DNA of 64,000 nt, taken from Clytia hemisphaerica. Lineage: Eukaryota > Cnidaria > Hydrozoa > Leptothecata > Clytiidae. The stretch spans positions 761,614 through 825,613 of the forward strand of contig CACVBU010000971.1 in the NCBI GenBank assembly GCA_902728285.1, read 5' to 3'. The notes beneath the pieces are model-generated. The model was not told where the DNA came from and did no database searches. It saw only the letters and a list, made by a program, of their open reading frames with translations. The translations under genes and the position numbers were made by a program. Below, piece after piece: positions 39,901-64,000 of the stretch; the stretch's first letter is position 1, and each line of letters starts with the position of its first letter.

Positions 39901-42400
39901 GTGACATCGTGTGGTATAGTGTTCTCCCTCTTCACGATGATACCGATGCTTTGGAACTTATTGTCTCTGGCAACGGTTTTGGTGAAGGCGTTCCTACCAA
40001 GAGGTATTTTTTTTATTGTCATTTAATATTTGTGTTATATTGTGTTTGTTTTCCCAGGGTTGCTACATCTGCCAGAAATGTATCAAATTAGGAAAGTCTG
40101 GAAAAAGTCTGGAATTGGCATACCTGTCTAGAAAAAAGAATTGGTATTTGAAGGAAATAGTACTGAATGAAGTCTAGCAAACTTTCTAGAAATAGGAAAC
40201 TTTTATCCTGGCATTTTTATTATTATTTTTTCGTTTATATACTACATGAACATAAACACACAAACATTATATACTACAAAATCAAACATAAAAAGCCAAG
40301 ATTGTGAGGATAAAAAAATCATAACATAAAATCACCTTTTCTTTAAACTATATTTTCATCTTTACAGCTCTTTATTAAGTTTTCATTCAAGTTTCTACCT
40401 AGGCTGCGCGCATCCCCAGAATTTATTTTGTTATAGGGGATGCGTATCGTGTATGAAATTCTCGTCCGAGAGTTACCTGAAATTTGGGGTAACCAAAATT
40501 TGCATAAAATTTACATAATTTCGTCACATCCAATCAAAGAAAGAAAAAAATGAAGTCATTGTGCTGTTGTTTTCATAATTATCAATTTTCATTCATTGAA
40601 CAAAGAAAAAAAGAAGTCATTGTATTGCTATGACACATAATCAAAAAAGAAAAAAGAAAAGACGGGGGTAAGTTGGGACAGAAATATTTTAGACGATACA
40701 TCCCCTATATCAAATCATATCAGAGAGGATGCGTGCAGCCTAGTTTCTACCATAATAGTCTGCGTATAAGTAGCAGGCAAATTACGGTAAACACTAAACA
40801 TTTGAAATTCCCCAAAAATTTCAAACCAAATCATATTCTTTCTGATAATTTCTAATTCCGTTGTATTCATCCATCTGGTCTTTCAAAATGACCGTTAAGA
40901 AAAAACTAAAACCTTCTAAACCAGCGCCCAGCCGAAAAAGACTTATTTTGTTCGTTGTGCGAAATTGGTAAACTCAAACTGAAACTCATGTTGCGGCCTC
41001 ATGTCGTAAAACAATAAATTTTATTTGTTTCTTTCAGAGAGAGTTTTAAATATACTCAAGTTAGATTATCATCAGACATTGCGTCTAAATTTCATTTCTA
41101 CAAAAGTTGCTATGTCAGGAATGGTCCAATACGCATTACCGTCAGAACGAATAGCAGTTAAAAGTGTTTCCAAGCAATTATTAAACCACCACCCAGTTCC
41201 TTCCCAGTTATTTGAACAATCCCCTCCAGAATTGTCATTATCTTGATCATACGTTGAAAATTTCGTATTGTTATGGTAACTAAGGGCAGTCAAATCATTG
41301 GCATCGCCTGACACACCGCTGATCTTCAATGTGTATTTGCTCGCCTCATCTCCAATTTCAAAAGTGTCGTATTTTGCATAAACTGGTTTTGTTTGTCCTT
41401 TCATTCGCATGTTGATCAACAGCTCTGATTTATTCGGTGCCATCGATTCTTTGGTCAAATCATGGACTATTTCATTTCCAAGCCAGAATTCATTGGCTAA
41501 CTCTCCAAAACCATATTTGTAGTTATTCCAGTTCTGTTTAAAGTCTAAGGATCCGCTTTCTCTTTTGAGATATACCGTCCATCCTCCACCTTGGGTAGTT
41601 TGATCGCAGAACACACGTGGTCTGTTAAATACAGGTCCCACCAGCTGATAAAAGCCATTAACTTGATAGCTGATAGCCAGCTTGTCGAAACTCGAGACAA
41701 TCTTTCATAGGGTCAGTATTCGTACAGTCGCAGTATTCGCTCTTAGGGATCAACTTACAAGGAGCACAATGTCCGTAGAATTTCTTTATGAGAGCTATCG
41801 ATTTTAACTTCAGTTTGTAGGTCGGTTTGATTTTCTGTAGATTGGAGAAATTGATCGGTCAACCAAGACATCTACTGTTTCATTGCCAGTGGCTGATGTA
41901 TAAGCAAACCATTGTATGCAGATGAATATGAAGATTTGACTTCCTGTTAGCGCCATTTTACTTTCCTTCGCCAGCTTTGAACCAGTGTTTGGTGTTTTGT
42001 TGAAAATTTAGTGGTCTTTTTATACATGTTGTAGGTTCATGGATTTATTGACTTATCGAGTTTCGTTTGCCTTTTATTGCTCCAAACAATAATGTTGGTT
42101 TGGAACGTTTCAAAAACTTTTTCCGTTTAATTTGCGGCTACAGTTTAATTGTGCCAAAGAAAGAACAAAAAAATTGGCACTGTGTACCAATGACAAAGAC
42201 GCATTCCAATTAAATTTTAGCCGCAAATTAAACGGCAAAAATCTCCATCTAGCGTGGCCCTAGAATTTAGCCAATCTCATAAATGAACATCTACATTAGT
42301 GTAATTTCTCTTCTTTTCTAGCAATTTTTTTAAAACATTGATTCACAACAGAACTGAAACCCAAATGGTTGATTCTGCGGCGAAAAAAAAGTCATCATAA
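30901..42400 (+). CDS. Unrecognised secreted cysteine-rich protein, four exons
   Basis: Four exons, 30901-31101, 35973-36115, 39881-40003 and 42322-42400, join with matching phases (0, 2, 2) and good GT..AG sites (gtattt, gtaagt, gtattt; caaag, acag, tctag) to 181 codons ending in TAA. The first exon encodes a typical signal peptide (MNRNLVACLLCIGCIARVTSS, cleavage likely near residue 20-21). The mature part has eight cysteines (C23, C46, C52, C63, C110, C112, C117, C122), a CYCIQSSC motif across the exon 2-3 junction, and a lysine/serine-rich C-terminus. There is no membrane segment, so secretion is inferred. No known family is recognised; extra or alternative exons in the long introns cannot be excluded. 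Its introns hold several transposons, a minus-strand retrotransposon and a minus-strand fibrinogen-related pseudogene. An AATAAA follows at 42624. Confidence 0.65.
31231..31414 (+). mobile_element. MITE with GAATCCTGCAT ends
   Basis: A 184-bp element with ends 'gaatcctgcat' / 'atgcaggattc', homologous in inverse to 10690-10900. It lies in intron 1 of the secreted-protein gene. Confidence 0.75.
31451..31786. mobile_element. TTCCG-rich element with G-run ends and CTAAAA target duplication
   Basis: Ends 'gggggggtttca' and 'tgaacccccc' are inverse; CTAAAA flanks both sides (31445-31450, 31787-31792). The interior consists largely of 'aattccg'/'tccgtc' words with little higher-order order. The ORFs across it are by-products. 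Confidence 0.65.
31836..32818 (+). mobile_element. 'GGACCTACC' repeat family, second subtype
   Basis: It begins 'tttttggacctaccccggtg' and ends 'ggtaggtcca..cacttgtt'. The interior shares the 'gcaaatttgggccaaaaaacgg' core with 50.9-51.7 and 62.1-63.1 kb, rather than the GCCGG core of the long copies. It also has a ~120-bp internal direct repeat ('tatctataagaatcacta..'). Confidence 0.75.
33013..33185. mobile_element. Palindromic MITE, ~75-bp arms
   Basis: The left arm 'tagaccttatcggagttttt' .. 'gatgcattatgggattgttt' .. 'gtattacaatagaa' is repeated in inverse up to 'ctccgataagatcta'. The loop is about 20 bp. Confidence 0.8.
33341..33550. mobile_element. Short inverted-repeat element, GGAACTAATTTTTG ends
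   Basis: The left 'ggaactaatttttgtg' is matched by 'cgcaaaaattagtcccc' at the right, and further 'aactaatttttgcg' copies occur inside. Confidence 0.55.
33551..34136. other. Intronic, nothing recognised
   Basis: The 81-codon ORF at 33514-33759 starts inside a transposon end and is not conserved-looking; not called. Confidence 0.4.
34137..35906 (+). mobile_element. 'GGACCTACC' repeat family, long copy in intron 1 of the secreted-protein gene
   Basis: Same organisation as 23806-25434: a terminal hairpin (GGACCTACCTAAGGTAGTCC), a CGTT/CGTC run, GCCGGAAATATGCCGG-rich tandem sub-units, and an end 'ggtaggtccattcagcat..cttgtt'. The right end lies only 66 bases before exon 2. Confidence 0.8.
36158..36396. 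mobile_element. 239-bp MITE with ~40-bp inverted ends
   Basis: The left 'atagatttataaagcctgaa' + 'gggctagatg' is matched by 'catctagccc' + 'ttcccaggctttataaatct' at the right. It lies 43 bases after exon 2 of the secreted-protein gene. Confidence 0.8.
36498..36723. mobile_element. 226-bp MITE with CCATACAGGGGGT ends
   Basis: Ends 'ccatacagggggt' / 'accccctgtatgg' are inverse, with a few diverged inverse blocks inside. Non-coding. Confidence 0.65.
36846..39718 (-). mobile_element. Non-LTR retrotransposon, 5'-truncated
   Basis: On the minus strand it runs from a truncated endonuclease domain (39718) through reverse transcriptase to C-terminal zinc fingers (37063), and ends in an (ATC)n tail at 36846-36869. 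The truncated 5' end and simple-repeat 3' tail are typical of target-primed insertion. It lies antisense in intron 2 of the secreted-protein gene. Confidence 0.85.
37063..39718 (-). pseudogene. Endonuclease-reverse transcriptase polyprotein, broken
   Basis: Domains in order: the C-terminal part of an AP-type endonuclease (TTTWIHPRSRQ .. MIDYVI .. ECGTDHFLL, about 39480-39718); a linker; reverse transcriptase with GKAPGLDG, NYRGISLL, ETQSGFRSGRGTTD, VFVDLTKAFDTVNR and the catalytic YADD (near 38100); then two C2H2 fingers (CDVCGK..HKRSH and CNQCGK..HMKIH, 37063-37240). Breaks: a frameshift near 39440, a stop at about 38302 (between PIAV and NGVKQGD), frameshifts near 38110 and 37780, and a stop near 37527. 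The order resembles RTE/Nimb-like elements common in invertebrates, but I do not assign a clade. Not functional as it stands. Confidence 0.88.
40360..40925 (+). repeat. Interspersed repeat, copy containing a MITE
   Basis: Matches 50320-50560 on both sides of the inserted MITE (40402-40740): 'attcaagtttctacc' on the left, and 'gtctgcgtataag' .. 'acggtaaacactaaacattt' .. 'gttgtattcat' on the right. Confidence 0.8.
40402..40740. mobile_element. 339-bp MITE, second copy of the 9256-9595 family
   Basis: Ends 'ggctgcgcgcatcccc' / 'gaggatgcgtgcagcc' with TA on both sides (40400-40401, 40741-40742). Nearly identical to 9256-9595 over its length. Confidence 0.9.
41072..41956 (-). pseudogene. Fibrinogen-related protein gene, broken copy (FReD-a)
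   Basis: On the minus strand the ATG at 41956 opens the same signal peptide as the two intact paralogs (MALTGSQIFIFICIQWF). A 2-base insertion near codon 37 (ggagAAattg versus ggagattg in the copy at 60.6 kb) shifts the frame to a stop. A 7-base duplication before the fibrinogen domain (tatcagc/tatcaag) restores it, so from about 41641 down to the stop at 41072 the fibrinogen domain is open and looks constrained: CDQTTQGGGWTVYLKR, FWLGNEIVHDLT, KSELLINMRMKGQTK, YDQDNDNSGGDCSNNWEGTG with the calcium-site aspartates and paired cysteines. It lies antisense in intron 3 of the secreted-protein gene. Either a recent pseudogene or a gene using another 5' exon. Confidence 0.75.
42015..42024 (-). promoter_or_regulatory. 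TATA box of FReD-a
   Basis: TATAAAAAGA on the minus strand, about 60 bases before the ATG, within a ~130-bp upstream stretch nearly identical in all three fibrinogen-related copies. Confidence 0.65.
42119..42238. mobile_element. Palindromic MITE upstream of FReD-a
   Basis: The left 'ccgtttaatttgcggcta' is matched by 'tagccgcaaattaaacgg' at the right, with outer 'ttttt'/'aaaaa'. About 120 bp, lying about 100 bases upstream of the FReD-a TATA box and absent from the other two promoters. Confidence 0.7.
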
Positions 42401-43510: not shown

Positions 43511-43740
43511 ACTGAAATAACGGGTCTAAGAGAGATTTTCGAAATATCCGAGAAAATATCGTGGTATTAGCTTTGGGTCAACCGTATATAAACTTATCGT
43601 CAACATAAATGGCAATGTTCAAAATTTAGTTAGACATTTTTGTAAAGAGAAAACCGGTAGCATCGATGATGCCGATAGTTATATTTTATAATGACAACCC
43701 CTAATCTATAAAAAAATGGGCAAGTATCGCAATGTATGTA

Positions 43741-43935
43741 GACCTGAAATCGTCAGGTTTTCACTACCGTCAAATTCGAAATTGACGGACTTTCACGTCC
43801 AACATTTCCGAAGCGTCTGACGTGCATGCATTGTTAGATCTAAACAATTCGTCTAGGTCTTCACTGTGGTAAATTTCGTAAATTGACTGACTTTCAAGTC
43901 TTACTTTTCCGAAACGTCAGACGTGCACATGCTTT
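43741..43935 (+). repeat. ~100-bp tandem duplication
   Basis: Two diverged units, each with 'ttcact..gt', 'aaattgac', 'gactttca', 'tttccgaa.cgt' and 'gacgtgca'. Present in duplication copy 1 only. Confidence 0.6.
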
Positions 43936-44494
43936 ATTTCTATGCGCTTTCATTACACTTGTAATCTAACAATTCAAAATAGGTCTCCTTGGTCGTGCAA
44001 GATAACGCAAGTCTCCAAGCAAAGTCACTTAATAAGTTGATTCTTAGGGTTAAGGTCCTGCAAAGGCTAGTACCTTAGGTAGAATTAAGAAAATTCTAGA
44101 AACAACGTGAAAGTTTTTTCATATTCTAAAACATCCAATTTTTTTTTAGAAAATTGGACTAAAAATAGGAGCATACTACGAACATTTTTTAGACTTAAAA
44201 CCCACGGTCTGAAGGTTTCAAAATCTTCAGACGTTCTTGCAAAAAAAATTTAACCGAAAGAACGAAAAAAAACAATATGATTATATAATAAGAACATACG
44301 ATATCTAAGCTATAAATTTAAGAACATTTTAAGAACATTCAAGTTTTTTCAGAGTTTGAAACATACAATTTCTTAGAAAATTAGATTAAAATATGATTGT
44401 ATTGATTCTCATCTGATCGTTTGAACTTCTTTATCAATGTTTTCATTGCTTCGCGTCCACGATTTTGAGGTTGAATGAACTTACTTTTTAATGA

Positions 44495-45367
44495 TTAGAG
44501 CTTACGGCGCATCATCATTTGGACAAATTCGGGTTGGTTACTACCAACCCAATAGATATTACCGTTATCCTTTGTAAATTTGTAATTACCAGTCAAAAGC
44601 GTGTTATAACAACTTTTGAACCACCAACCAACTCTGTATCTAGACGAACAATGGCCAGAATACTTGTCATTATCCTGATCATACGTTGAAAACTTCATGT
44701 TGTTATGATAACCAAGAAAAGAACTTGATCCAGTTAAATGAGATGCATCGCCTGATACACCGCTGATCTTCAATGTGTATTTGCTCCCCTCATCTCCAAT
44801 TTCAAAAGTGTCGTATTTGGCGAAAACTAGTTTGGTTTGTCCTTTCATTCGCATGTTGATCAACAGCTCTGACTTCTTTGGAGCCACTGATGGTTTGGTC
44901 AAATCATGGACCATTTCATTTCCAAGCCAAAATTCACTGGTCATCTTACCAAAACCATATTTGTAGTCCAGCCAGTTCTGTTTGAAGTCTGTTGATCCAT
45001 CTTGTCTCCTTAAGAAAACTGTCCAGCCACCATTTTGAGTGGTTTGATCGCAGTAGACGTTTTCTTTCTGTGTTACTTTGTAGATTCCATTCTTGGTGTA
45101 GCCGTTCTGTAAAAACTCCAGACAATCTTTCATCGGTGTGATGGCTGTACAATCACAGCTTTTGCTATTAAAGATTGATCTACATGGCAAGCAATCACCA
45201 TACATCTTTTTGAGCAGGGAAAGTAACTTCATCTTTAGTTTGATTTTCTGGAGATTGGAAATTGATTGGTCAATCAAGACATCTACTGTTTCATTGCCAG
45301 TGGCTGATGTATACGCAAACCATTGTATGCAGATGAATATGAAGATTTGACTTCCTGTTAGCGCCAT
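44495..45367 (-). CDS. Secreted fibrinogen-related protein (FReD-b)
   Basis: A single exon of 290 codons with a signal peptide (MALTGSQIFIFICIQWFAYT, cut near 22-24), a short lysine-rich linker (35-57), a cysteine cluster C59-C62-C71-C73, and a C-terminal fibrinogen-like domain from C82. Domain signs: C106 (CDQTTQNGGWTVFLRR), DFKQNWLDYKYGFG, EFWLGNEMVHDLT, KYTLKISG, the calcium site around D230/D232/N233/D234, and the C240..C253 pair enclosing RVGWWFKSC, then LLTGNYK. FReD proteins often act as carbohydrate- or acetyl-group-binding lectins in innate immunity (family knowledge; ligand here unknown). The ATG is supported by a TATA box about 60 bases upstream. A donor-like GTAAGT follows the stop without the matching intron found in FReD-c. 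An intact copy of a local family. Confidence 0.92.
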   Translation of the reverse strand: MALTGSQIFIFICIQWFAYTSATGNETVDVLIDQSISNLQKIKLKMKLLSLLKKMYGDCLPCRSIFNSKSCDCTAITPMKDCLEFLQNGYTKNGIYKVTQKENVYCDQTTQNGGWTVFLRRQDGSTDFKQNWLDYKYGFGKMTSEFWLGNEMVHDLTKPSVAPKKSELLINMRMKGQTKLVFAKYDTFEIGDEGSKYTLKISGVSGDASHLTGSSSFLGYHNNMKFSTYDQDNDKYSGHCSSRYRVGWWFKSCYNTLLTGNYKFTKDNGNIYWVGSNQPEFVQMMMRRKL

Positions 45368-45424
45368 TTTACTGTTCTTCGCCAGCTTTGAACCAGTGTT
45401 TGGTGTTTTGTTAAAATTTAGTGG

Positions 45425-45434
45425 TCTTTTTATA
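45425..45434 (-). promoter_or_regulatory. TATA box of FReD-b
   Basis: TATAAAAAGA on the minus strand, 58 bases before the ATG, in the same conserved upstream block as at 42015 and 60761. Confidence 0.7.
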
Positions 45435-45499
45435 CATGTAGGTTTATGAATTTCTTGACTTATCGAGTTTCGTTTGCCTCATTGCTCCAAACAAAAGTG

Positions 45500-46148
45500 T
45501 TGTGTTTGCACGTTGCTCCAAAAATCTTTTTACCCGTTTAATGGAAAGTAAATTTATCCTTTTATGGTCAAAGATTTTCAAGCGATAATGATCTTAGTGA
45601 TCAGTCTTTTTGAAAGATTATTAAAAATTATATCGATACATTTTATTGTTAAAAACTATAAGGCTGTTTATCGATAAAATTGGTAGATGTGTTGTAAAGT
45701 TTGCTTTATCTAGTCAGCACAGAATGAAATCTTTCCGAAATTAGTCTTAGAAACACGTGGGAATTACGAGATATGCGGGTTGATAAAACTAAGCATAAGA
45801 AATGCTTGTGAAAGTTACGAAGCAAGCGACTCGATAAAACTAATAACAAGAGACGCTCGTGAAAAAAGATTTCCTCGACCGGTTTTTAGTGGTTAAAAAA
45901 ATAAGGCTAATCACCGTCACCGTCTGATTTTAAAATACCGTATTCCCGTTTCTTGTTTCGTGAAATCCCGTAATACCGTACTAAAAAATGGGCAATCCCG
46001 TCACACCGTAAAAGTATAAACCCCCTGAATGGCATACCCCTCAAAGCGTTAACCTTTTGATGCTGGTAAAAATGAAAATTATTTGCACCAAACATAAACA
46101 ATAAAAAATTCCATAAATTTTAATTGATAATTTAGTGTTCTGTCGTAG
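45500..46148. other. Upstream region of FReD-b, non-coding
   Basis: Holds ATCGATA motifs near 45632-45680 and a TCCCGT/ACCGT-rich stretch at about 45905-46015 whose style resembles 31451-31786. 46065-46148 matches duplication copy 2. Confidence 0.4.
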
Positions 46149-49030
46149 TAGGGGGGGGGGGGGGGTCCAAAATTTCACTTTTTGAGTTTAACCATCTTTT
46201 TCAAATTAATTTTTCATGCTGATTCCGAATTTGAAATCCGTTTTTCCATATCTCTTACCCCTGCGCGGCTACCGGAGAGCCTTTTTTCGGAAAACCGCCC
46301 AAAACCACTAAAAGTCAAATTTTTTGAAATTTTCCATTTTGAATAGCTTTCTAGTGATGTGATATCTTTTTTAAATCAGTTTTTCATGCTGATTCCGAAT
46401 CTGAAATTCATTTTGTCATAGCTCTCACCCTTGGCCTGGTATAGGAGGCTGTTTTTTTACTAAAATCTTCGAATCCAAGGAAACTTGATAATTTGAAAAT
46501 GTTTGAATTTGAATGAACTTTGAATGAAAAATTTAATGATAACAACTTGTTTTAGATCAGATTTTCATGCTGATTTCGAATTTCAAATCAGTTTTTGCAT
46601 ATCTCATACCTTTGGCTTGCTACCGGGCCGGCTACATGAGGTTCCTTATTCAGAAAATATCGTAAAAATGTACTGAAATGAATATTTTTGAAGGAGATTC
46701 TTGTACTTGGATTCCATTTATCAAAACATCTGGTCATAGATTCCTTGTTACAAAGAGTTTTGAGTACTTTATGCAATGATGCAACCCTATGGACTGAGCT
46801 GCTTTTAATTTGTCTGCTTAGAATATAATCAAAGATGTAAAAATCAAATTGTTAAAAATACCTTGAGCTAAAGTCTATTCACGATAAGTGTGCACTCTTT
46901 TTTCATTTACCTATAACTTTTGAAGGAATTCTTCAATCTTTATAAATTTGGTATCATTGGAAAGATATTAGTGAGTGGAACAATTTGAAATAAAAAAACT
47001 TTTAAAAAGATTATAAAAATGAAGATGAAAATGAAGAAGAAAAAAATGAAGATCTTGTAGAAAAGTGCTATAACTTTCATTTTCACTGGAAAGATTCTTT
47101 GATCTTAGGAGATCATCACTGTGAAGAAATTTCATAAAATAATTTTTATTCAATATAAAGTTATGATACAAGTTAATAAGTGATTGACCCCAAAAAACAG
47201 CAAAAACTGCAGAAAAACAGCGTTTTTAGACGTCAATCAGCTTATAACTTTGTTTGATATCTTTTGACTGAATGATTATTTTTGAGAATTTTTTTCACAG
47301 TGATGACGTTCAACGATTAAGGATTCACTTCAGTGAAAATGATAGTTATAGCACTTTTCTACAAGATCTTCATTTTTTTCTTCTTCATTTTCATCTTCAT
47401 TTTTATAATCTTTTTAAAGTTTTTTTTATTTCAAATTGTTCCACTCACTAATATCTTTCCAATGATACCAAATTTATAAAGATTGAAGAATTCCTTCAAA
47501 AGTTATAGGTAAATGAAAAAAGAGTGCACACTTATCGTGAATAGACTTTAGTAAAATTCTTCCAAATGCAATGATTGTCTGCATTGGACATTCAAAAGTT
47601 GATATTGACTTTTACAAGCCGTATATCATTGTTTGAAAGGTTAAGTTACAATGAAAATCATAGGGATTTATAGACCTTAAATACCGAATAGATAGAATCT
47701 AAAAATCCTACATTGGAATAGTTGTTTATTGAACCAATCAAAAGGCACTATTGTTTTATCCATCCCTTAAATATTTGCTTGAATAGATTTGAAGAACTAA
47801 TGCTTTTTACAAATAAATCAGACCTTAAGCTGTTGATTTAATTACAATATTATTGGTGTCAATTATTAAGGACTTCCACAAATATGACTATCTGTTCAAA
47901 CAAGGGTTCTTTGAGAAGTTAATTAGAAAAATATGTTTTGAGAAATTAAATCATCTTGTGATGAACTTCGTAGTAAAACGTCCCTCCTTTCCTGGGAGAC
48001 AACCATGTAAATGCTTTCATATTGGTCCATTTGTTTGGAAGTTACATTTTAGGAATAGTTTATATTTCTTAAACATTGGTATCTTTCAATATAAACCTGT
48101 TCTTATATGACTTGTTTGAAAAATTTGAAAAATTCCATATATTAGCTATCTGTATAGCCTAGTGATTTTAATTTTAACTCACCCCTTAAATGATTAAGGC
48201 TTCCTAAAAATAATTATCTACTTTTCAATGTTCAATTAATTTAGGGAATCATTGTATTTGAAAGGAGTTCACTAGCTCAAGATAGTTTAAACGAGATTCT
48301 AAGCAGGTTGAATTTTGCTTCATGACTAGTTGAGCAGATAAATTCATAGCAGCAGTACAAAGGGTTAGCTCATTGGATAAAGATAAAGTATATACTCAAG
48401 ACACCCTATGACGATGAATGTATAACATTAGCAAAGTGTCAAAAAGCCACAGACGAACTAAAAGCTTAGAAATATCCTTTCAATAATATCGTTTTTGCAC
48501 ATTTTCTGCAATATTTTCTGAATAAGGAAACCTCATGTAGCCGGCCCCGTAGCAGGTCAGTGGCAGGAGATATGCAAAAACTGATTTGAAATTTGAAATC
48601 AGCATGAAAACTTGATCTAAAACAAGTATTGCTATTAAATTTTTCATTCAAAGTTCATTCAAAGTGAAACATTTTCTAATTATCAATTTTCCTTAGTTTC
48701 GAAGATTTTAGTAAAAAAAAACAGCCTCCTATACCAGGCCAAGGGTGAGAGTTATGACAAAATGAATTTCAGATTCGGAATCAGCATGAAAAACTGATTT
48801 AAAAAAGATATCACATCACTAGAAAGCTATTCAAAATGGAAAATTTCAAAAAAATTGACTTTTAGCGGTTTTGGGCGGTTTTCCGAAAAAAGGGTCTCCG
48901 GTAGCCGCCCAGGGGTAAGAGATATGGAAAAATGGATTTCAAATTCGGAATCAGCATGAAAAATTAATTTAAAAAAGATGGTTAAACATCAAAATTTCCA
49001 AAAAAAGTCATTTTTGGACCCCCCCCCCTA
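46149..49030. mobile_element. 2.9-kb foldback element with ~557-bp inverted arms
   Basis: Arms 46149-46705 and 48473-49030 are inverse copies (matching words 'catgctgattccgaat', 'gcctggtataggaggctgtt', 'gccggctacatgaggttcct'), starting with a TAGGGGG run. GTCGTAG is directly repeated at 46142-46148 and 49031-49037; copy 2 of the duplication has one GTCATAG and no insert. The centre holds a separate 684-bp palindrome and about 900 bp without recognisable coding sequence. Confidence 0.9.
46868..47551. mobile_element. 684-bp near-perfect palindrome inside the foldback element
   Basis: Arms of about 335 bp start 'ctaaagtctattcacgataa' and end as its inverse; the turn is near 47205-47215. Inner words such as 'gtgctataactttcattttc' and 'tcttcatttttttcttcttc' occur in both arms. 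It lies off-centre in the loop of the outer element, so it was probably a separate insertion. Confidence 0.9.
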
Positions 49031-49488
49031 GTCGTAGAGGTATATATTTTGTTCGAAGGTCTCCCTTCAACCTAAAAACAGTACTCAGCGTCATCAAAAA
49101 AAAAGATAAAAAAGACACCCCCTCACTGACCTGTTGGAATTTTTTCAGACAGTCGGGATAAAAATAACGGACTGAAACTCGATGGGGATTGATATTCCCA
49201 TATTTCTTGTGGCTGGGGATTTCAATTCTTTTGTTTTAAAGTCATAAAATTCAGTGGGGATGGGAAAAATAGCATTTTTATTGAAGGGTAATTTTCAACC
49301 GGGGACGATATTTTGGCCAATTTTTCCAGTGGGAAGAGGTCCCAGTGGGTTGTCGGTGAAAAGGGGGTGTAAAAAGCAAAGCTCTGTCAGAGTCTAGTCT
49401 ATTGAGTAGCTAGCTCTACTCATGAGATAAATAATCCAAATCTCATGGTTGATTGAAATTCGATTGACGTTTTTGCTTACGTTAAATT

Positions 49489-49590
49489 GTAATTTCCCGC
49501 GAACTTGTAATTTCCCTCCTAGCTTTTGTAATTTCCCTCCTAGCTTTTGTAATTTCCCTCCTAGATTTTGTAATTTCCCGCAAAAGTGAA
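49489..49590 (+). repeat. 21-bp minisatellite
   Basis: Units of 'gtaatttccctcctagcttt' plus T start at 49507, 49528 and 49549, with diverged edge units ('gtaatttcccgc') on both sides. Confidence 0.9.
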
Positions 49591-50319
49591 ATTTTCATCG
49601 TTTGGAAATTCATACTTTTTTCGACTTTCTTACTAACTTCAAAGGCTTAAGTAAATGGAATACTATCCAATCAAAACTCGATTCGCGTTTCTAAGACTTT
49701 TTTGAGACCTTTTTAAATTTCCAGTGATTTCCAGTGTTAAATTGACGTCTTTCAGAATTGTTAGAATTTCAATCCAAACCATGAGATTAACCAGGAATCC
49801 CATGCTTGTTTCGTGAAATTCTGGATAAATTACCCTCTGTCAAATTTCGAAATGTTTTAAATTTCCCTCGTTGCACTCGGGAAATTTCAAAAAATTTCAA
49901 AATCGACCTCGGGAAATTTATCCCGAATTTTTCTTATAACCATGAGATTACTAGTACAAATCAATTTGAATCTGTAGTTTTATTAATAGTTTAATCCACT
50001 TTTTACAAAAAGAAGTAGCTCCACGTTTTTTTTATAAGTACAAACTATGATAACAACATAAGGCTTCGATGGCCAAAATGCTAAGAACAAGTTAAGAAAA
50101 TTTTAAGGCTTCGCCGACTCTGAAACACCCATTTTCTTAGGAAAATTGACAAAAGATAATACTCAAAAAATGGTGAAAATAAGAACATATTAAGAACATT
50201 TTCAGGCTTAAAACTCAAAAAGTTCAGCACCTCGGAATGCTTCAAAAATTTTGGATGTTCTTATAAAAGACGTGAATTTCCCATTCCCTAAGGTCTTACG
50301 TAAAACTTTACGTGCATAC

Positions 50320-54159: not shown

Positions 54160-55450
54160 ACCAAGTCCTAGGGTAGTTGAAACCAAAAAAGCAATCTACT
54201 TACTGTGAAGCCTGAAAACCCAACCCATAGCTACCCAACAAGTAAATTCCCACATGTTCATTGCTAATATAATTATCATTGAATCGTGACGTCATTCGAC
54301 TTCACCAGGGATTATAGCAAGAGAAAACAAGAAAGAAAAGAAAAATATCTGTCCCACTTACATGTGAACCCATGGTTGGATAGTAAGAAACCCAGTTAGA
54401 ACAAATTAAAACTTGACGACACAAGACTAAGAGCTACCCAACCAGTAGGTTTGCATGGGATCATAGGCTAAGATAATTACCAGTGTATCATGACGTCATT
54501 AGACGTCGCCAGGAATGATAGGATGAAAAAAAAGGCCAGGTAAAAAAAAAAAAAAAAAAACTGTCAAATTTACAGGTGAACCCATGGGTGGATAGTTAGA
54601 AACCCAACTAAAACAAAAAGTAAACATGACAGCACAGACCCAGGGGTATCCAATCAGTAGGTTCCCAAAAGTTCATAGGCTGAGTAATTACCAATGTATC
54701 ATGACGTCATTGGACGTCGGCATGAGTGATAGGATGAAGAAAAGAAGAGTGAAAAACAACTGTCCAACTTACAGGTGAACCCATGGGTGGATAGTTAGAA
54801 ACCCAGTTAAAAACAAAAGTAAAACATGACAACACAGAAACCCAGGGCTAACCAATTAGTAGGTTTCCAAAAGTTCAGGCTAAATAATTACCAATGTATC
54901 ATGACGTCATTGGACGTCGGCAGGAACGATAGGATGAAGAAAAGAGGGGTGAAAAACAAATGCCTAACTTAAAACTGAACTTATGGGTGGATAGTGAGAA
55001 ACCCAGTTAAAAACAAAATGTGAAACATAACAGCACAGAAACCCAGGGCTATCCAACCAGTAGATTTCCCAAAGGTGCATTTAAGCTGAAATAATTACCA
55101 ATGTATCAACCAGCACCATTTGATATCACCAGGGATTAAAGGAGGGAGGAACAAATGGTGTGAAAAACAACTGCCCGACTGGACAAATGAACCCATGGGT
55201 GGATAGTTAAAAAAATAGTTAAAAACCCCAGATAAAGACAAAAAGGTAAAATATGATAACACATGAAACCCAGGGCTATCAACCAAGGCTTCCAAAGGTT
55301 CGTAGGCTAGAATAATGAAGTGGCTAATGTATCAGCGTCGTTGGAAAAACAAAATGGGGGGAAAACAACTGCCCGACTTACGATATATGAACCCATGGTT
55401 GGATAGTTAGAAGCCCCCCAGAGAAATGAAAGACAAAAATTAAATTAAAA
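54160..55450 (+). repeat. ~205-bp tandem satellite, about six units
   Basis: Each unit has 'gaacccatgggtggatagtt', 'aaacccag', 'ccagggctatccaa', 'taattaccaatgtatc' and a TGACGTCA-type site. The sites lie at 54287, 54491, 54702 and 54902; the last two units (near 55107 and 55334) have lost the palindrome. Divergence increases to the right. Confidence 0.88.
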
Positions 55451-56902: not shown

Positions 56903-57690
56903 GGGACTCTGCCCTGACAATATGAAATCAAATCCATATGTATTATTTAAGGATTGATATAAACAGACTTATGGGCTTGTTAAAGAAGGGAAATGTTGTT
57001 TCATGATGTATTATATCAATTATTTTTCATATTTATGACGTAACAGGGTTCCCACTAGTAATTACCAGTTATTTTCCCTGACTTTTTACTAAAAATGAGG
57101 CATTTCTCCCTGACTAAAACGCTTAAAGGAGTGATTCCCTGACTTTGAATGGAAAATGACATGTTTTTCCCTGACCACCAACACTTTCACGTTGCAGGCA
57201 ATTCTTTTTGATGTTTTGGAAAATAGAGACTATTAGATTAGATAGAAGCCTTCTGATTTTAAGTATTTAACAGAATTCCCTGACTTTTCCCTGACTTAGC
57301 GAGACATAATCATAATAAAATATTTCCTAACTTTTCCAGGTTTTCCCCGACTTTTACAAAAAAATGATACAATTTCTAGGTTTTCCAGGTTTTCCCTGGT
57401 TTTCGATTTTCATTGTCCTTGAGGGTTTTACCAAGAATTTATTACAGACACTGGATAAACAACGAGCTATATTTTCATTGATTTCTCATGTTCATGTTCC
57501 CATTTCTCCTTGTCGGCAGTAATGACATTATTGTTCACTTGTGCATTTATTTCCAAATTTGTGGCGAGTAAAGAATACAAAAAGATAAAGATAGAGGACT
57601 TTTTAGAAATGAGATTATTAATCATTTTTCAAAATCAGAGAACTTCGAGCCGCCTTGACAGTTGTCCTTTGCTGACTTTATAGAAGTCAG
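56903..57690. other. Non-coding; repetitive 'ccctgactttt' stretch
   Basis: About 57050-57430 repeats 'tccctgactttt' and 'aggttttcc' words after a 'gggttcccact' start, which looks like another non-autonomous transposon, but I cannot fix both ends. Confidence 0.4.
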
Positions 57691-57896
57691 CATAAATGGC
57701 AATGTTCAAAATTTAGTTGGAAATTTTTATAAAGAGACATTTAACAAGAAACTTGAATATAATATTATGATAACTCACTTGAAAACCGGTAGCATCGATG
57801 ATGCCGATAGTTATATTTTATAATGACAACCCCTAATCTATAAAAAAAAATGATAGATTCTAGAAAGATTATAATCCAACATCCATACACTATAAA

Positions 57897-58250
57897 TAAA
57901 ATTCATAAAAATTTATTTTCTACATGAATTTCGAAATCCATAATGGCAGATTCAAAACTTTCTTTCGTCACATGGGCTCTTAGGCTTTGCTAGCCTAAGA
58001 AAAATATTTTTTTGAGCTTAAAACCCTGCATATTATATACAAATCGGTCAGAAATTTTATGCTGATTAAGAAAAAGGTCAGAACCATGGTCTGAATCCCA
58101 TCGATTGGTATATAATATGCAGGGTTTTAAGCTCAAAAAATATTTTTCTTAGCCTAGCAGAGCCTAAAAGCCCATGTGACGAAAGAAAATTTTGAATCCG
58201 CCATTATGGATTTCGAAATTCATGTAGAAAATAAATTTTTCTGAATTTTA
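57897..58250. mobile_element. Palindromic element, ~150-bp arms
   Basis: Left and right arms are inverse copies ('ttattttctacatgaatttc', 'gcatattatatac', 'cacatgggct'), turning near 58075. A third, partial relative follows at about 58370-58560 ('tctgacctttttcttaatca', 'gattggtatataatatg'). Confidence 0.85.
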
Positions 58251-58560
58251 TTATTTGAACGGTAGGCAAGACCCTCCGAAAACTTCAAGTAAATTAAGTA
58301 AGCCAATCAAATGTTACAGCCACGCAAATCTGGAACCAAAAGTAGTCATTTCAAAAAATCGAAATCGAAAGTGCTTCATATCTCCAGATAACGAAATTTT
58401 CAGACCATGATTCTGACCTTTTTCTTAATCAGCATAAAATTTGTGGTCGATTGGTATATAATATGTCTATGTTTAAAGTCAAAAAGAAAATTCTTTTCAA
58501 GCAAGAGGGCTAAAAAGGGGTTGAAAATCTAAAATCCGCCATTGTGGAAATTCGAGCCTG

Positions 58561-59065
58561 ATCCAAATAACGCCACACACGTTTTCTGACTCTTCAAGGA
58601 CTATATACTTTCATGATCAAAAGAAAAAATGACTATACGCCAATGTGCATACGGGACCTAACTCAGCCCCTAGAGTACACATCAAAAATCAACTCGACCT
58701 TGAGGCCAGACAAAGAAATACTCAAGTTTAATTTTTTAGATATACTTTTTAAGGTAGCTAAAAGATAGCAAATATGGATTATTTCATGTCCTCTAGGTTG
58801 AGTTGAAATTTATTTCAGATAGTAGACAAAATTTCGAGACTACTTTCTCAATCAAACTACTTTCATAATCATTTTTTTAATTGTAAAAGAAAGAAGGTTA
58901 ATGTCGACTAAACACATCAGAATTTTGATAAAAACAGATTTAATTTTGGAATCAGTTAGCCTCTAACAACCATTTTCACAAAATTTCAATTTTTATCTTA
59001 GTGTCGGATGGATTTTTGATTTATCTTGAGTAACGCTTGAACTAAAAACAAATGTGAAATTAATT
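58561..59065. other. Non-coding, nothing recognised
   Basis: AT-rich, between the palindrome remnants and the duplicated block that resumes at about 59069. Confidence 0.4.
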
Positions 59066-59386
59066 TAGACTAAAAATAGGAGCATATTACGAACATTTTT
59101 TAGACTTAAAACCCACGCTCCGAAGGTTTCAAAATCTTCAGACGTTGTTACAAGATAAATTTAACTGAAAGAACGAAAAAAACAATATGATTATATAATA
59201 AGAACATACGATATTCTAAGCTATAAATTTAAGAACATTTTAAGAACATTCAAGTTTTTTCAGAGTTTGAAACATACAATTTCTTAGAAAATTAGACTAA
59301 AATATGATTGTATTGATTCTCATCTGATCGTTTGAACTTCTTTATCAATTTTTTCATTGCTTCGTGTCCACGGTTTTGAGGTTGTT

Positions 59387-59799
59387 CTGAAAAAAGAAAG
59401 TAATTTTACATGTTATGTATGTATTGAAACTGTAAGATTTTCTGGACGTCCGATGATGTTATCAAAATTAAGAGGATTTAGGGATAGAGAATCCAACAGA
59501 GGAAATTTTAGGATTGACCCAATCAAAAAATAACCCAAAAAAACTTTTTTAGCAAAACAAATTTTTAAATAACCTGAAATAAATGGCCACAATTTTCCTA
59601 CGTGCACGGTAAATTTTTGAAGTCGCTTGAAAATTAACCATCAGAGGAAAAAAGTCAAATCATAACAAGAATTTTGTTACGTGCCGCGATGTCAAAAATC
59701 CGAACGTTGACGCTGTGGTTGAAGTTTTTATTAAAAAGATTTTCTTATTTTGATTTAAAAGATTTTGAAATCATCTCGTAATCTATAAAATGAACTTAC
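59387..59799 (-). other. Probable 3'UTR intron of FReD-c
   Basis: On the minus strand a GTAAGT donor begins 10 bases past the FReD-c stop, and 'ctttcttttttcag' ends at 59387. The 413 bp between are missing from FReD-b, where the sequence on either side is joined. Confidence 0.55.
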
Positions 59800-59809
59800 T
59801 TTTTAATGA

Positions 59810-60703
59810 TTAGAGCTTACGGCGCATCATCATTTGGACAAACTTGGGTTCGACATCACCGGGATTATTATTCCAAGAGATCTCGCCATTGCTGTGTCCC
59901 GTGAATTTGTAATTACCAGTCAAAAGCGTGATGTAGCAACGATTGAACCACCAGCCAACTCTTCCGTATTCAGTCGAACAATGTCTAGAACGATCTTTGT
60001 CATTATCCCGATCATACGTTGAAAACTTCATGTTGTTATGGTTACCAAGAAAAGAATATGATCCAGTCGAATGAGGTGCATTGCCTGATACACCACTGAT
60101 CTTCAATGTGTATTTGCTCGCCTCATCTCCAATTTCAAAAGTGTCGTATTTGGCGAAAACTAATTTGGTTTGTCCTTTCATTCGCATATTGATCAACAGC
60201 TCTGACTTCTTTGGAGCCACTGATGGTTTGGTCAAATCATGGACTATTTCATTTCCAAGCCAAAATTCACTGGTCAGCTTACCAAAACCATATTTGTAGT
60301 CCAGCCAGTTCTGTTGGAAGTCTGTGGATCCATCTTGTCTCCTTAAGAAAACCGTCCAGCCACCATTTTGAGTGGTTTGATCGCAGTAGACAGTCTTTTC
60401 TCTCTGTGTTACTTTGTAGATTCCATTCTTGGTGTAGCCGTTCTGCAAAAACTCCAGACAATCTTCCATCGGTTTGATGGCTGTACAATCACAGCTTTTG
60501 CTATTAGAGATTGATCTACATGGCAAACAATCGCCATACATCTTTTTGACCTGAGAAAGTAACTTCATCTTTAGTTTGATTTTCTGTAGATTGGAGATTG
60601 ATCGGTCAACCAAGACATGTACTGTTTCATTGCCAGTGGCTGATGTATACGCGAACCATTGTATACAGATGAATATGAAGATTCGACTTCCTGTTAGCGC
60701 CAT
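59810..60703 (-). CDS. Secreted fibrinogen-related protein (FReD-c)
   Basis: A single exon of 297 codons, paralog of FReD-b in the duplicated segment. Same plan: signal peptide (MALTGSRIFIFICIQWFAYT), lysine-rich linker, cysteine cluster C59-C62-C71-C73, and a fibrinogen-like domain from C82 with C107, the calcium site D231/D233/N234/D235, and the C242..C256 pair around GRVGWWFNRC. The N-terminal 205 residues differ from FReD-b at about 15 positions and one indel, but the last 85-90 differ at about 23 positions plus several indels, notably around GHSNGEISWNNNPGDVE. Likely a secreted lectin-type recognition protein (family inference). TATA box 58 bases before the ATG; a probable intron lies in the 3'UTR. 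Confidence 0.92.
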   Translation of the reverse strand: MALTGSRIFIFICIQWFAYTSATGNETVHVLVDRSISNLQKIKLKMKLLSQVKKMYGDCLPCRSISNSKSCDCTAIKPMEDCLEFLQNGYTKNGIYKVTQREKTVYCDQTTQNGGWTVFLRRQDGSTDFQQNWLDYKYGFGKLTSEFWLGNEIVHDLTKPSVAPKKSELLINMRMKGQTKLVFAKYDTFEIGDEASKYTLKISGVSGNAPHSTGSYSFLGNHNNMKFSTYDRDNDKDRSRHCSTEYGRVGWWFNRCYITLLTGNYKFTGHSNGEISWNNNPGDVEPKFVQMMMRRKL

Positions 60704-60760
60704 TTTACTGTTCTTCGCCAGCTTTGAACCAGTGTTAGGTGTTTTGTTGAAATTTAGTGG

Positions 60761-60770
60761 TCTTTTTATA
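60761..60770 (-). promoter_or_regulatory. TATA box of FReD-c
   Basis: TATAAAAAGA on the minus strand, in the upstream block shared with the FReD-a and FReD-b promoters. Confidence 0.7.
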
Positions 60771-60839
60771 CATGTTGTAGGTTCATGAATTACTTGACTT
60801 ATCGAGTTTCGTTTGCCTCATTGCTCCAAACAAAAATGT

Positions 60840-62135
60840 ACGTAATTCCACTAATTTGTTTAATGGAAAGTAAATTTATCCTTTAATGGTCAAAGATTTT
60901 CAAGGGATAATGATCTTGGTGCTCAGTCTTTTTGAAAGTCTCTTGTCAAGGGGGTTGAAAGCTTGATTTTACGCAGATCGAATAAGGGGGTTTCGTGAAC
61001 TTTGCCTGTGCACCTCTTGACATAAAACAAATAATTTGAACAGGTTTATCAAAGATGATTTTTCTCTTTCTTCATTTTTCACGGTGGTACTTTTCATTTT
61101 CGTCTGCAGGTTTAATTTTCCTGTGAGTTTCTAACAGTGAATGGGGGGGGGGGGGGGGGGTTTTGAAATACCTTTTTCCTGTCAATTTTTGCTAAATCCC
61201 GGAATCCCTGACATTAAAAAAACAAAATCTCATCACCGGCATGTTTCATGGCTACTTGATACATTTTCTTTACGAGAGTAAAAGAAATCAGTGGTTTTAC
61301 CAAGAATAGCCGTAAAAACTAGGTATTTTAAATATTTGACTTTTCATTGGAAAAGGATCGCTTTCGTTATCTATGGAACGGTGTATATCTATAGTAAAAT
61401 TATCAATAGTGTGATCAATATCGATAAGGATAAGGTGATTTATATTGATAAGGAAGTTCTATCGATAATTCTATCGTTTTAAGGGATATTGATAAAATCT
61501 ATCGTTGGAAAGTCTTTTTCGATAAAGTTATATTGTTAAAAAATCCTATCGATAAATTTTATTCTTAGAAATGATATGGCTGTTATCGATAAAATTGTTA
61601 GATGTGTTGGAATAGTAAAGTTTGCTTTCTATTTATCTAGTCAACACAGAATGAAATGAAATGGTGGAAATAATGAAAATTATTTGCACCAAACATTAAC
61701 AATAAAAAATTCCATAAATTTTAATCTAGAATTTAGTGTTCTGTCATAGAGGTATATTCTTGTTCGAAGTTATAGACGATTTTATGGTAAAAAATTGATT
61801 GAAAACAGGGAATTTCCCCACAATCTGCATAATTTATGCAAAATTATAGCACTTTTTTTACCACAAAAACGCCCATAACTTTTGATCTAGGAAAGTTGAG
61901 ACTTTGATATAATACATTTTTTTGCTCAGTTGGAAGAGCTCTATCACGTGGTATAGTCATTTTTGATTTTGAAGACCCCCCAAAAATCACGAATTTTCAG
62001 GGCTTACAATTTTGCCTAAAATCGCAAATTACGCAAAAACTGCGGGTTTTCAAGCTTGGTAACATTCAAATTCCGAATCAGCACCCTCAAATTGAATAAG
62101 AAACATATCAAAAAGTTGGTCCCAGACATTTTGAA
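60840..62135. other. Non-coding upstream of FReD-c; G run and ATCGAT cluster
   Basis: A long G run at 61144-61160. Many ATCGATA/TATCGAT-type words crowd 61380-61590. 61671-61775 matches duplication copy 1 and includes the empty site of the foldback element. Confidence 0.45.
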
Positions 62136-63135
62136 TTTTTGGACCTACCCCGGTGGGGTGGAAGTCCTATAAATTCACCTCTGTCCGTTCATCCGTCCGT
62201 CCGTTCGTTACCAGCTTTTCTGGAGATTGAATCATAGGAATCATTTGATTTTTGGTACAAAGGTGCAAAACGGTGGTGGCCAAAATGTGACGGAGCCCGA
62301 TTTTCGAAAAAAAAATTTTTTGGGCAAATTTGGGCCAAAAAACGGCTAAAAAACGGGTTTTTTGGACTTGGTGAAAAATTGGATCATTAAATTTTTTTTA
62401 TTTTTTGCATGAAAGTAGGGTACCATCATAGGTAAAAGATGGCTCAAGCAGATTTTTGCAAAAAAATTTGTTGGCTCAAAAAACGCATGTTTATCTATAA
62501 GAATCACTATTAATAAGCATACATCAATGTTCTTAGTTAAATTACTCAATTTTTTGATGAGAGAGATATTTTTTGAGGGCTTACTTTTGAAGAATGTGTG
62601 TGTTTAGACATGAAATTTTGGTTGCTTGGCGTGTTTTTATAGAAAAACTGGCCAAATTCGACATTTTTTTATAAGCACATTATCAATTACTTAGGTATTA
62701 GCTTTTCTCGAGATTGGCTCTTTCATTCTTTATGATTTTTTGTACAAAGATGCATAACTATAAACCCTCGAATGTGACTGAGCCCGATTTTCGAGAAAAA
62801 ATGTTTTTGGGCAAATTTGGGCCAAAAAACGGCTAAAAAAAGGGTTTTTTGGACTTTGTGAAATATTGGATCGTTCTTTTTTTCTGATTTTTTGCATGAA
62901 AGTAGGTAAAAAATGGGTAATTTGTATGCTCACGAAGTCTTGAATATGAAAGAATATTTCAAGAGCATGAAATTTTGGTTTCTAAACGTTTTTTTTATAA
63001 GAAACAAACGACTAATTTTAATAAATCGTCACTATTTGTGCTCTGAATGATTGTTTAACGTTCATGCTCACGTTGATATCAATTATATATGTGTTAAATG
63101 CATAACCAGGTAGGTCCATAAAAGTATCACTTGTT
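62136..63135 (+). mobile_element. 'GGACCTACC' repeat family, copy in duplication 2
   Basis: A 1-kb copy of the same subtype as 31836-32818: start 'tttttggacctaccccggtg', a CCGT/CGTT run, two tandem inner sections around 'gcaaatttgggccaaaaaac', and end 'ggtaggtccataaaagtatc' + 'acttgtt'. Absent from the matching site in duplication copy 1. Confidence 0.8.
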
Positions 63136-64000
63136 TCTTTATTTTTGAAACATTAACAATGGCCACGGCCTACTTCAATCTAAACACTGTACTCAGCGTC
63201 ATCGAAAAATCATTATCAAAAAGAAACCCCCTTCTCACTGACCCGTTGGAATTTTTTCAGGCAGTCGGGATAAAAATAACGGACTGATTCTCGATGGGGA
63301 TTGATATTCGATCATATTTCATGTGTCTGGGGATTTCAATTCTTTTGTTTTCAAGTCATAAAATTCATTGGAGATGGGAAAAATTGCATAGTTTTTCGCA
63401 ATGAGATATTGAAGGGTAATTTTCAACCGGGGACGATATTTTGGCCAATTTTTCCAGTGGGAAGGGGTGGGTCTGTGAGAAGGGGGTGTAAAAAGCAAAG
63501 CTCAGTCAGAGTCTAGTCTATTGAGTAGAGCTCTACTCATGAGATGTTTTATCAATAGTTAAATCCACTCTTTACCAAAAGAAATGAGAACAAACTATAT
63601 AAGAACATAAGGCTTCGACTGGCCAAAATGTTAAGGACAAGTTTCTTAAGAACATTTTAAGGCTTCGCCGACTCTGAAACACCCAATTTCTTAGGAAAAT
63701 GGACAAAGATACTCAAAAAATGGTGAAAATAATAACATGTTAAGAACATTTTCAGGCTTAAAACTCAAAAGTTCAGCACCTCGGAATGCTTCAAAAATTT
63801 TGGATATTCTTATAAAAAAACTTGTATTCTAATTTTAATGGATGTACCGACTACCTAAAAAAGACGTACCTTATCGGGGGAACAATGTCGGGGTTCAAAT
63901 TAGTCAGGGAAAAGCTTCGACGGAAGGGACAAATTTATTTTATTTACAAATTTATATTTATCACCGTTTATCGAATATTTTTGGGAAGAGATCTTTCAGA
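63136..64000. other. End of duplication copy 2 and non-coding flank
   Basis: 63165-63817 corresponds to 49070-49420 and 50035-50269 of copy 1. The rest up to the window end shows nothing. Confidence 0.5.

Follow-up and report, generated by a model that had tools for sequence, protein, structure and literature searches.

The window, the 64,000-nucleotide stretch of Clytia hemisphaerica DNA that we analyzed (C672:761614-825613), holds three fibrinogen-domain (FReD) gene copies, designated a, b and c, all on the minus strand (Table 1). FReD-c matched the Pfam Fibrinogen_C profile over positions 3-219 of 221 (E = 2e-55; domain residues 80-294), and its translated N-terminus, judged by eye, shows a signal-peptide-like start followed by a short helical, Cys-containing linker. 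G+C content was 33-39% per 4-kb block. Pfam matches to ribosomal protein S19e, Pex2/12 and reverse transcriptase were also found in the window, which gave no Rfam match and no tRNA with ARAGORN. The reverse transcriptase match (37063-39484, minus strand) adjoins copy a and is a remnant of the non-LTR type, with a C2H2-like zinc-finger ORF seen by eye downstream of it. Inverted repeats of up to 280 nt (46179-46643 and 48529-49012; 96% complementarity, about 2 kb apart) lie between b and c, and a tandem array with a unit of about 200 bp occupies 54466-55074 inside a strand-skewed stretch.

Table 1 Features of the fibrinogen-domain gene copies and their surroundings in the window
Feature	Positions	Strand	Remarks
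FReD-c	59810-60703	-	intact single ORF, 297 aa
c frame, codons 1-205	60089-60703	-	3.6-6.2% from full copies b, d, e, g
c variable cassette, codons 206-287	59843-60088	-	divergence island; common to C421 genes
c cassette core, codons 236-287	59843-59998	-	13-29% between copies
c C-terminal anchor, codons 288-297	59813-59842	-	near-identical again in clade-1 copies
FReD-b, intact paralogue, 290 aa	44495-45367	-	Pfam Fibrinogen_C, E 2.2e-56
b variable cassette	44528-44755	-	homologous to c 59843-60088 (alignment)
FReD-a, third copy	41072-41956	-	N-terminal part frameshifted, C-terminal ORF open
5' tract of a (5' flank and codons 1-36)	41849-42072	-	conversion-like, near-identical to b/c
TATAAA, promoter-like	60765-60770	-	in conserved 5' flank of c; putative function
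Putative 3'-UTR intron of c	59387-59799	-	GTAAGT ... TTTTTTCAG; predicted splicing
Duplicated segment with c	57686-63817		counterpart with b ~43599-50268, colinear only in part

Copy a is already mosaic. Its 5' end differs from b at 1/24 silent sites (codons 1-36) and at 7/117 positions of the 5' flank (6-7%), and right after this near-identical tract the silent sites of codons 40-103 are saturated. Codons 151-207 show a pS of 0.22-0.29 (dS 0.27 to b and 0.37 to c), and dS reaches 0.65-0.69 in codons 208-285, compared with 0.39 between b and c over the same codons. The cassette of a is of a different type and shorter than those of b and c. In a GENECONV-like test restricted to a, b and c, there were few polymorphic sites where all three agree.

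Divergence between the intact copies and across the gene family

The preliminary description held that the intact paralogues b and c diverge mainly toward the C-terminus between similar non-coding flanks, and both statements were borne out. Codons 1-205 carry 15 residue changes and one indel event, compared with 22 residue changes and four in-frame indel events in codons 206-287. At the nucleotide level, differences numbered 28/612 in codons 1-205, 44/222 in codons 206-285 and 2/39 in codons 286-298. The 3' flank differs at 9/261 positions and the 5' flank at 4/117 (proximal) and 4/78 (distal), or at 20/231 over its entire length including one badly aligned stretch; on either side of the island, divergence is back to about 4%. 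The divergence had been assigned to the last 85-90 residues, which holds for codons 206-287 but not for the last ten codons, where the sequence, like the 3' flank, is near-identical again.

In a scan for local excess, none of 2000 permutations (0/2000) reached the observed value, and the maximum-likelihood island comprised codons 236-287, with 37/138 differences inside and 50/1113 outside. Its 3' edge in c is sharp (59843-59837) and its 5' edge blurred (60085-59902). Changed codons bearing two or more changes were concentrated in the island (13/22 vs 1/15, p = 0.0016).

Silent as well as replacement divergence between b and c increased from frame to island: silent pS from 0.11 to 0.27, dS from 0.122 to 0.331, dN from 0.031 to 0.170 and dN/dS from 0.26 to 0.51. 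A maximum-likelihood fit put the ratio of silent rates at 3.5 (p = 0.004), the dN/dS values of 0.42 and 0.75 did not differ (p = 0.28), and for the island alone dN/dS = 1 was not rejected (p = 0.46). Among codons encoding the same residue, silent differences occurred in 13/179 (codons 1-205), 0/22 (206-234) and 8/28 (235-287); the contrast with codons 1-205 gave p = 0.0025 for 8/28 and p = 0.09 for 8/50. Fourfold sites rose slightly (3/23 in the island vs 5/66). Averaged over b, c and the further copies d and e, pS was 0.12 in the frame and 0.30 in the island, and pN 0.025 and 0.165, respectively.

We searched the 417-Mb assembly (951 contigs) for related genes. A protein search returned at least 133 FReD matches (132 of 310 candidates scored). 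With the c frame as DNA query (60089-60823), 21/21 candidates matched; the best matches, at 93-96%, were e (C112), d and f (C759), b (C672) and g (C850), followed by a at 80% and by genes on C421 at 70-77% over part of the frame. The five copies b, c, d, e and g, which lie on four contigs, were compared pairwise. All ten pairs differed by 3.6-6.2% (mean 4.5) in codons 1-205 and by 12.7-29.3% (mean 23.3) in codons 236-287, with 6.7-16.7% in codons 206-235 and 0-11.3% after codon 287. Since the island is common to all ten pairs, it is a property of the subfamily rather than of one pair.

For a wider comparison, 20 stretches were taken from the genome and 19 rows aligned, consisting of 17 ORFs and the open C-terminal parts of a and g; the alignment excludes L018 (stops), L027 (short), L030 (broken) and f (no cassette). 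In 7/7 further paralogue pairs (L022/L025, L023/L024, L016/L020, L028/L029 and three within the C421 clade described below), the island was more divergent than codons 104-205 (Fisher p from 0.0074 to 2.5e-10). In L023/L024, replacement divergence rises far more than silent divergence.

In copy f (L012, C759:66353-66362), the deletion takes out precisely the cassette plus the 3'-UTR intron (c 60157-59406 is absent), with an overlap of about 10 nt at the junction. The putative intron of c begins about 10 nt past the stop codon, and 8/17 paralogues have a GTA[AT]G motif no more than 45 nt from the stop, against a background of 4.8%. Related sequence is present in d, e and g, and b is without most of the region. 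An insertion as the origin of the 405 extra bases after the stop codon of c was rejected, as the other copies show a loss in b.

IMG/VR, phage records and GTDB contigs yielded no useful relative; L001 is a fragment of 25% identity. The GTDB contig search also returned a 4-kb contig filed under the bacterium Defluviimonas aestuarii (NZ_JASBQQ010000017.1, L002). Its proteins, adjacent to one another, are ones that we take to resemble vertebrate fibrinogen beta, apolipoprotein A-I and AMBP, and the contig is probably contamination with fish-type liver transcripts.

Cassettes common to two frame clades

Four genes on C421 (L015, L017, L019 and L021) form a second frame clade (clade 2, bootstrap 100), distinct from that of b, c, d, e and g (clade 1). 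Silent pS between the clades was 0.83-0.90 in codons 1-150, 0.535 in codons 151-205, 0.20 in codons 206-235, 0.41 in codons 236-287 and 0.30 in codons 288-297. In codons 236-287, the value between clades (0.41) equals that within clade 1 (0.40) and within clade 2 (0.37) to within a few hundredths. Seven far paralogues gave 0.75-0.93 throughout all segments, which means that the sharing across clades is not due to conservation of silent sites. The 3' flanks of clade 1 and clade 2 had no match to each other. The genes are mosaics, and their cassettes form a pool that spans both frame clades.

Between-minus-within clade divergence fell from 0.331 (codons 135-170) through 0.067 (171-205) to 0.012 (206-287), which supports a change point near codon 205, the place that the preliminary description had named for a conversion breakpoint. 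Among the 70 labelings of the sequences, the clade partition ranked 10/70 for codons 206-287 and 6/70 for codons 236-287, and a trace of clade signal may be left in the island. Segments of one gene have conflicting relationships, as seen both in this silent-divergence contrast and in the PHI test over codons 135-297 (0/5000 permutations); within the island PHI was not significant (p 0.17-0.23). An AU test of the island rejected both clades as separate groups (p = 0.04) and did not reject clade 1 alone (p = 0.37) or clade 2 alone (p = 0.14), making the topology test weaker than the contrast in depth.

We also searched the genome with the c cassette as DNA query. All 14/14 candidates matched, and the best was a C421 gene (84%), narrowly ahead of d (83%), a second C421 gene and e (81% each), a third C421 gene (80%), and g and b (78% each); part of the fourth C421 gene matched at 86%, and five further partial matches reached 71-74%. 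The set of nine cassettes used below was picked after the trees had been seen, and this later search returned the same nine at 78% or more. No near-identical recent donor was found in the genome, the nearest cassettes being at least 13% apart (14/14 scored matches), and no free cassette outside a gene was present among these matches.

We consider it probable (roughly 0.7) that the pattern arose because ectopic gene conversion repeatedly replaced a cassette of 250-380 bp and selection favoured variety among the binding sites; conversion as the mechanism, and its direction, are what we infer from the mosaics. The genes would encode secreted fibrinogen-domain lectins composed of a conserved frame and an exchangeable ligand-binding cassette. 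Near-identical units of promoter, frame and 3' flank would have spread by segmental duplication, and short-tract ectopic conversion among family members would replace this tract, which encodes the ligand face and the calcium loop, probably starting where the copies match well, near codons 170-205, 222-236 and 288-297. The preliminary description had proposed gene conversion sparing the 3' half. Conversion is retained here, but sparing is not, as the 3' cassette is itself common to anciently separated paralogues.

The nearest rival is gene conversion that homogenizes frames and flanks but is blocked by selection in the binding region, leaving an old peak of divergence. For clade 1 taken by itself, this rival would give the same silent and replacement peak, and the 5' tract of a appears homogenized with b and c. 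Precedents are a peak-of-divergence signature in primate opsin exon 5, according to the available text of PMC3924837, and CEACAM32, where conversion is described in the leader exon and introns and not in the Ig exons in the accessible part of PMC7042247. However, protected divergence alone leaves unexplained why cassettes are equally close across clades with saturated frames and unrelated 3' flanks. Moreover, the flanks within the duplicated segments are no older than the frame, their non-coding parts differing at 84/1470 positions (5.7%), which makes a recent duplication with its cassettes replaced the simpler account. We regard this rival as unlikely, although the two processes may operate side by side.

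Local hypermutability, or a plain relaxation of constraint, would likewise raise silent and replacement divergence together and add extra indels, as observed. The rise in silent divergence, which the preliminary description had set as a refuting outcome, did occur, but it does not follow that the region is only one of higher mutation, because island divergence stops following the lines of the gene tree. Higher mutation should make the island more divergent across clades, whereas divergence drops there to the within-clade level; transitions, moreover, dominate in the island as elsewhere (35:11 vs 27:14). With the positional evidence given below against relaxed constraint, we find this explanation highly improbable.

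Even slighter is the chance that some copies are alleles or mis-joined haplotypes. The assembly is fragmented into its 951 contigs, C759 measures merely 78 kb, and the flanks of the copies are 88-95% alike, all of which would suit such an artefact. Against it, b and c lie on one contig, comparison of C759:55001-64500 with the window gave scattered repeat-like matches and no colinear allele, and the clade 2 genes sit on a separate contig, where the 3' flanks are unrelated.

Selection and the predicted ligand site

Ligand contacts were taken from FIBCD1 (PMC3908420) and a shrimp FREP (PMC7858579), as given in the available portions of these reports, and transferred through an alignment to ficolin-1 and the spacing from the calcium Asp. 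The mapping is a sequence alignment; AlphaFold2 predictions for a, b and c had a mean pLDDT of 29.5. Over the nine cassettes, the six predicted contact positions (221, 246, 255, 257, 271 and 283, the last uncertain owing to indels) showed a mean entropy of 1.48 bits compared with 0.55 in the rest of the island (p = 0.005), in a test that followed our having seen the residues of a, b and c at these positions. Position 257 is the exception, being an invariant Tyr. The calcium Asp 233/235 and the S1-site Cys 242/256 were invariant in 9/9 cassettes, and simple relaxed constraint does not account for their invariance while contact positions vary.

In FIBCD1 numbering, Tyr431, His415 and Ala432 have roles in the acetyl pocket, as far as the accessible text of PMC3908420 and PMC7858579 describes them. 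The pocket is not kept here: the position of Tyr431 is S271 in c, D in b and S in a; that of His415 is Y257 in c, Y in b and L in a; and that of Ala432 is N272 in c, N in b and D in a. Classical binding of acetylated sugars therefore appears doubtful, because these ficolin residues are not conserved in the aligned copies.

We fitted codon models to the nine cassettes. Mean dN/dS under M0 was 0.49, with a value of 1 rejected (p = 9e-5), so that the mean in the variable part does not exceed 1. A class of 4% of codons had a dN/dS of 4.35 (p = 0.009), in models that contain no recombination term and in a type of site-class test that recombination can inflate. The high class (dN/dS about 4-6) persisted without gap-adjacent codons (p = 0.022) and in clade 1 alone (5 cassettes, p = 0.023); with a, b and c only, the signal was gone once gap-adjacent codons were dropped. 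A control segment, codons 104-205, gave a dN/dS of 0.12 and a site-class p of 1. Some selection for variety is plausible, given this codon class and the variation at ligand-contact positions.

Point mutation under diversifying selection alone, with no exchange, would account for this codon class and for changes gathered at contact positions. It would also suit codons 206-234 of b and c, where 6 residue changes accompany 0/22 silent ones in same-residue codons, and the mainly replacement rise in L023/L024. As the sole cause, which the preliminary description had allowed, diversifying selection does not hold: silent divergence is also up, 3.5-fold between b and c and from 0.12 to 0.30 in the family mean, the mean dN/dS is 0.49, and cassettes are shared across clades. 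We judge this explanation very unlikely.

Under the preferred reading of repeated cassette conversion, selection would keep the scaffold (calcium Asp, Cys pair and Trp-Trp core), and variety at the contact positions would be favoured or tolerated. A kept scaffold with varied contact positions suggests that each copy probably has its own specificity, and the proteins may recognize diverse, probably microbial, glycans. A bolder reading, possible but doubtful in our estimation, is a dedicated germline, perhaps also somatic, cassette-exchange system, in which anchors flank four variable ligand-face loops (about codons 208-221, 237-246, 254-258 and 269-287, between invariant anchor blocks) and conversion reshuffles specificities. 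If true, such a system would give invertebrates, in a lectin fold, their own version of framework and CDR.

Comparison with known systems

It has long been asked how invertebrates broaden their recognition in the absence of antibodies, and among fibrinogen-domain proteins the usual example is that of the snail FREPs. They are likewise a family of fibrinogen-domain genes, and there the products are immune proteins. Snail FREPs carry one or more IgSF domains at the N-terminus, whereas Pfam found Fibrinogen_C only in b and c. In Biomphalaria glabrata, they owe their diversification to gene conversion together with point mutation according to the available text of PMC7588048 and PMC12074976, and the accessible part of PMC2935394 reports somatic variation. 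Unlike in snail FREPs, the variation in the copies described here lies inside the fibrinogen domain and among germline copies. The 185/333 genes of sea urchins form another big, diversified immune family with mosaic members, but they encode a different protein and their mosaic is element-wise.

Tachylectin 5A, ficolin and FIBCD1 share the same domain (PF00147), and their calcium Asp pair and S1 Cys pair are kept here, whereas their acetyl-pocket residues are absent from our copies. Tachylectin 5A is secreted with a single recognition domain, as is predicted for these copies. What varies in our copies is the fibrinogen domain, at residues that contact ligand in relatives of known structure. Near-identical frames with different cassettes amount to natural domain-swap experiments, and specificity could be read by comparing copies. 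In a literature search that left subscription papers mostly outside, and that is weak evidence of novelty, we found no description of paralogues exchanging the ligand-binding portion of their fibrinogen domains.

CEACAM32 (PMC7042247) and opsin exon 5 (PMC3924837) are, in the available portions of these two reports, cases in which leader or flanks are alike and the functional region is divergent, as in the copies here. In contrast to both, the divergent part in our family is common to anciently separated paralogues, so it looks exchanged and not only protected.
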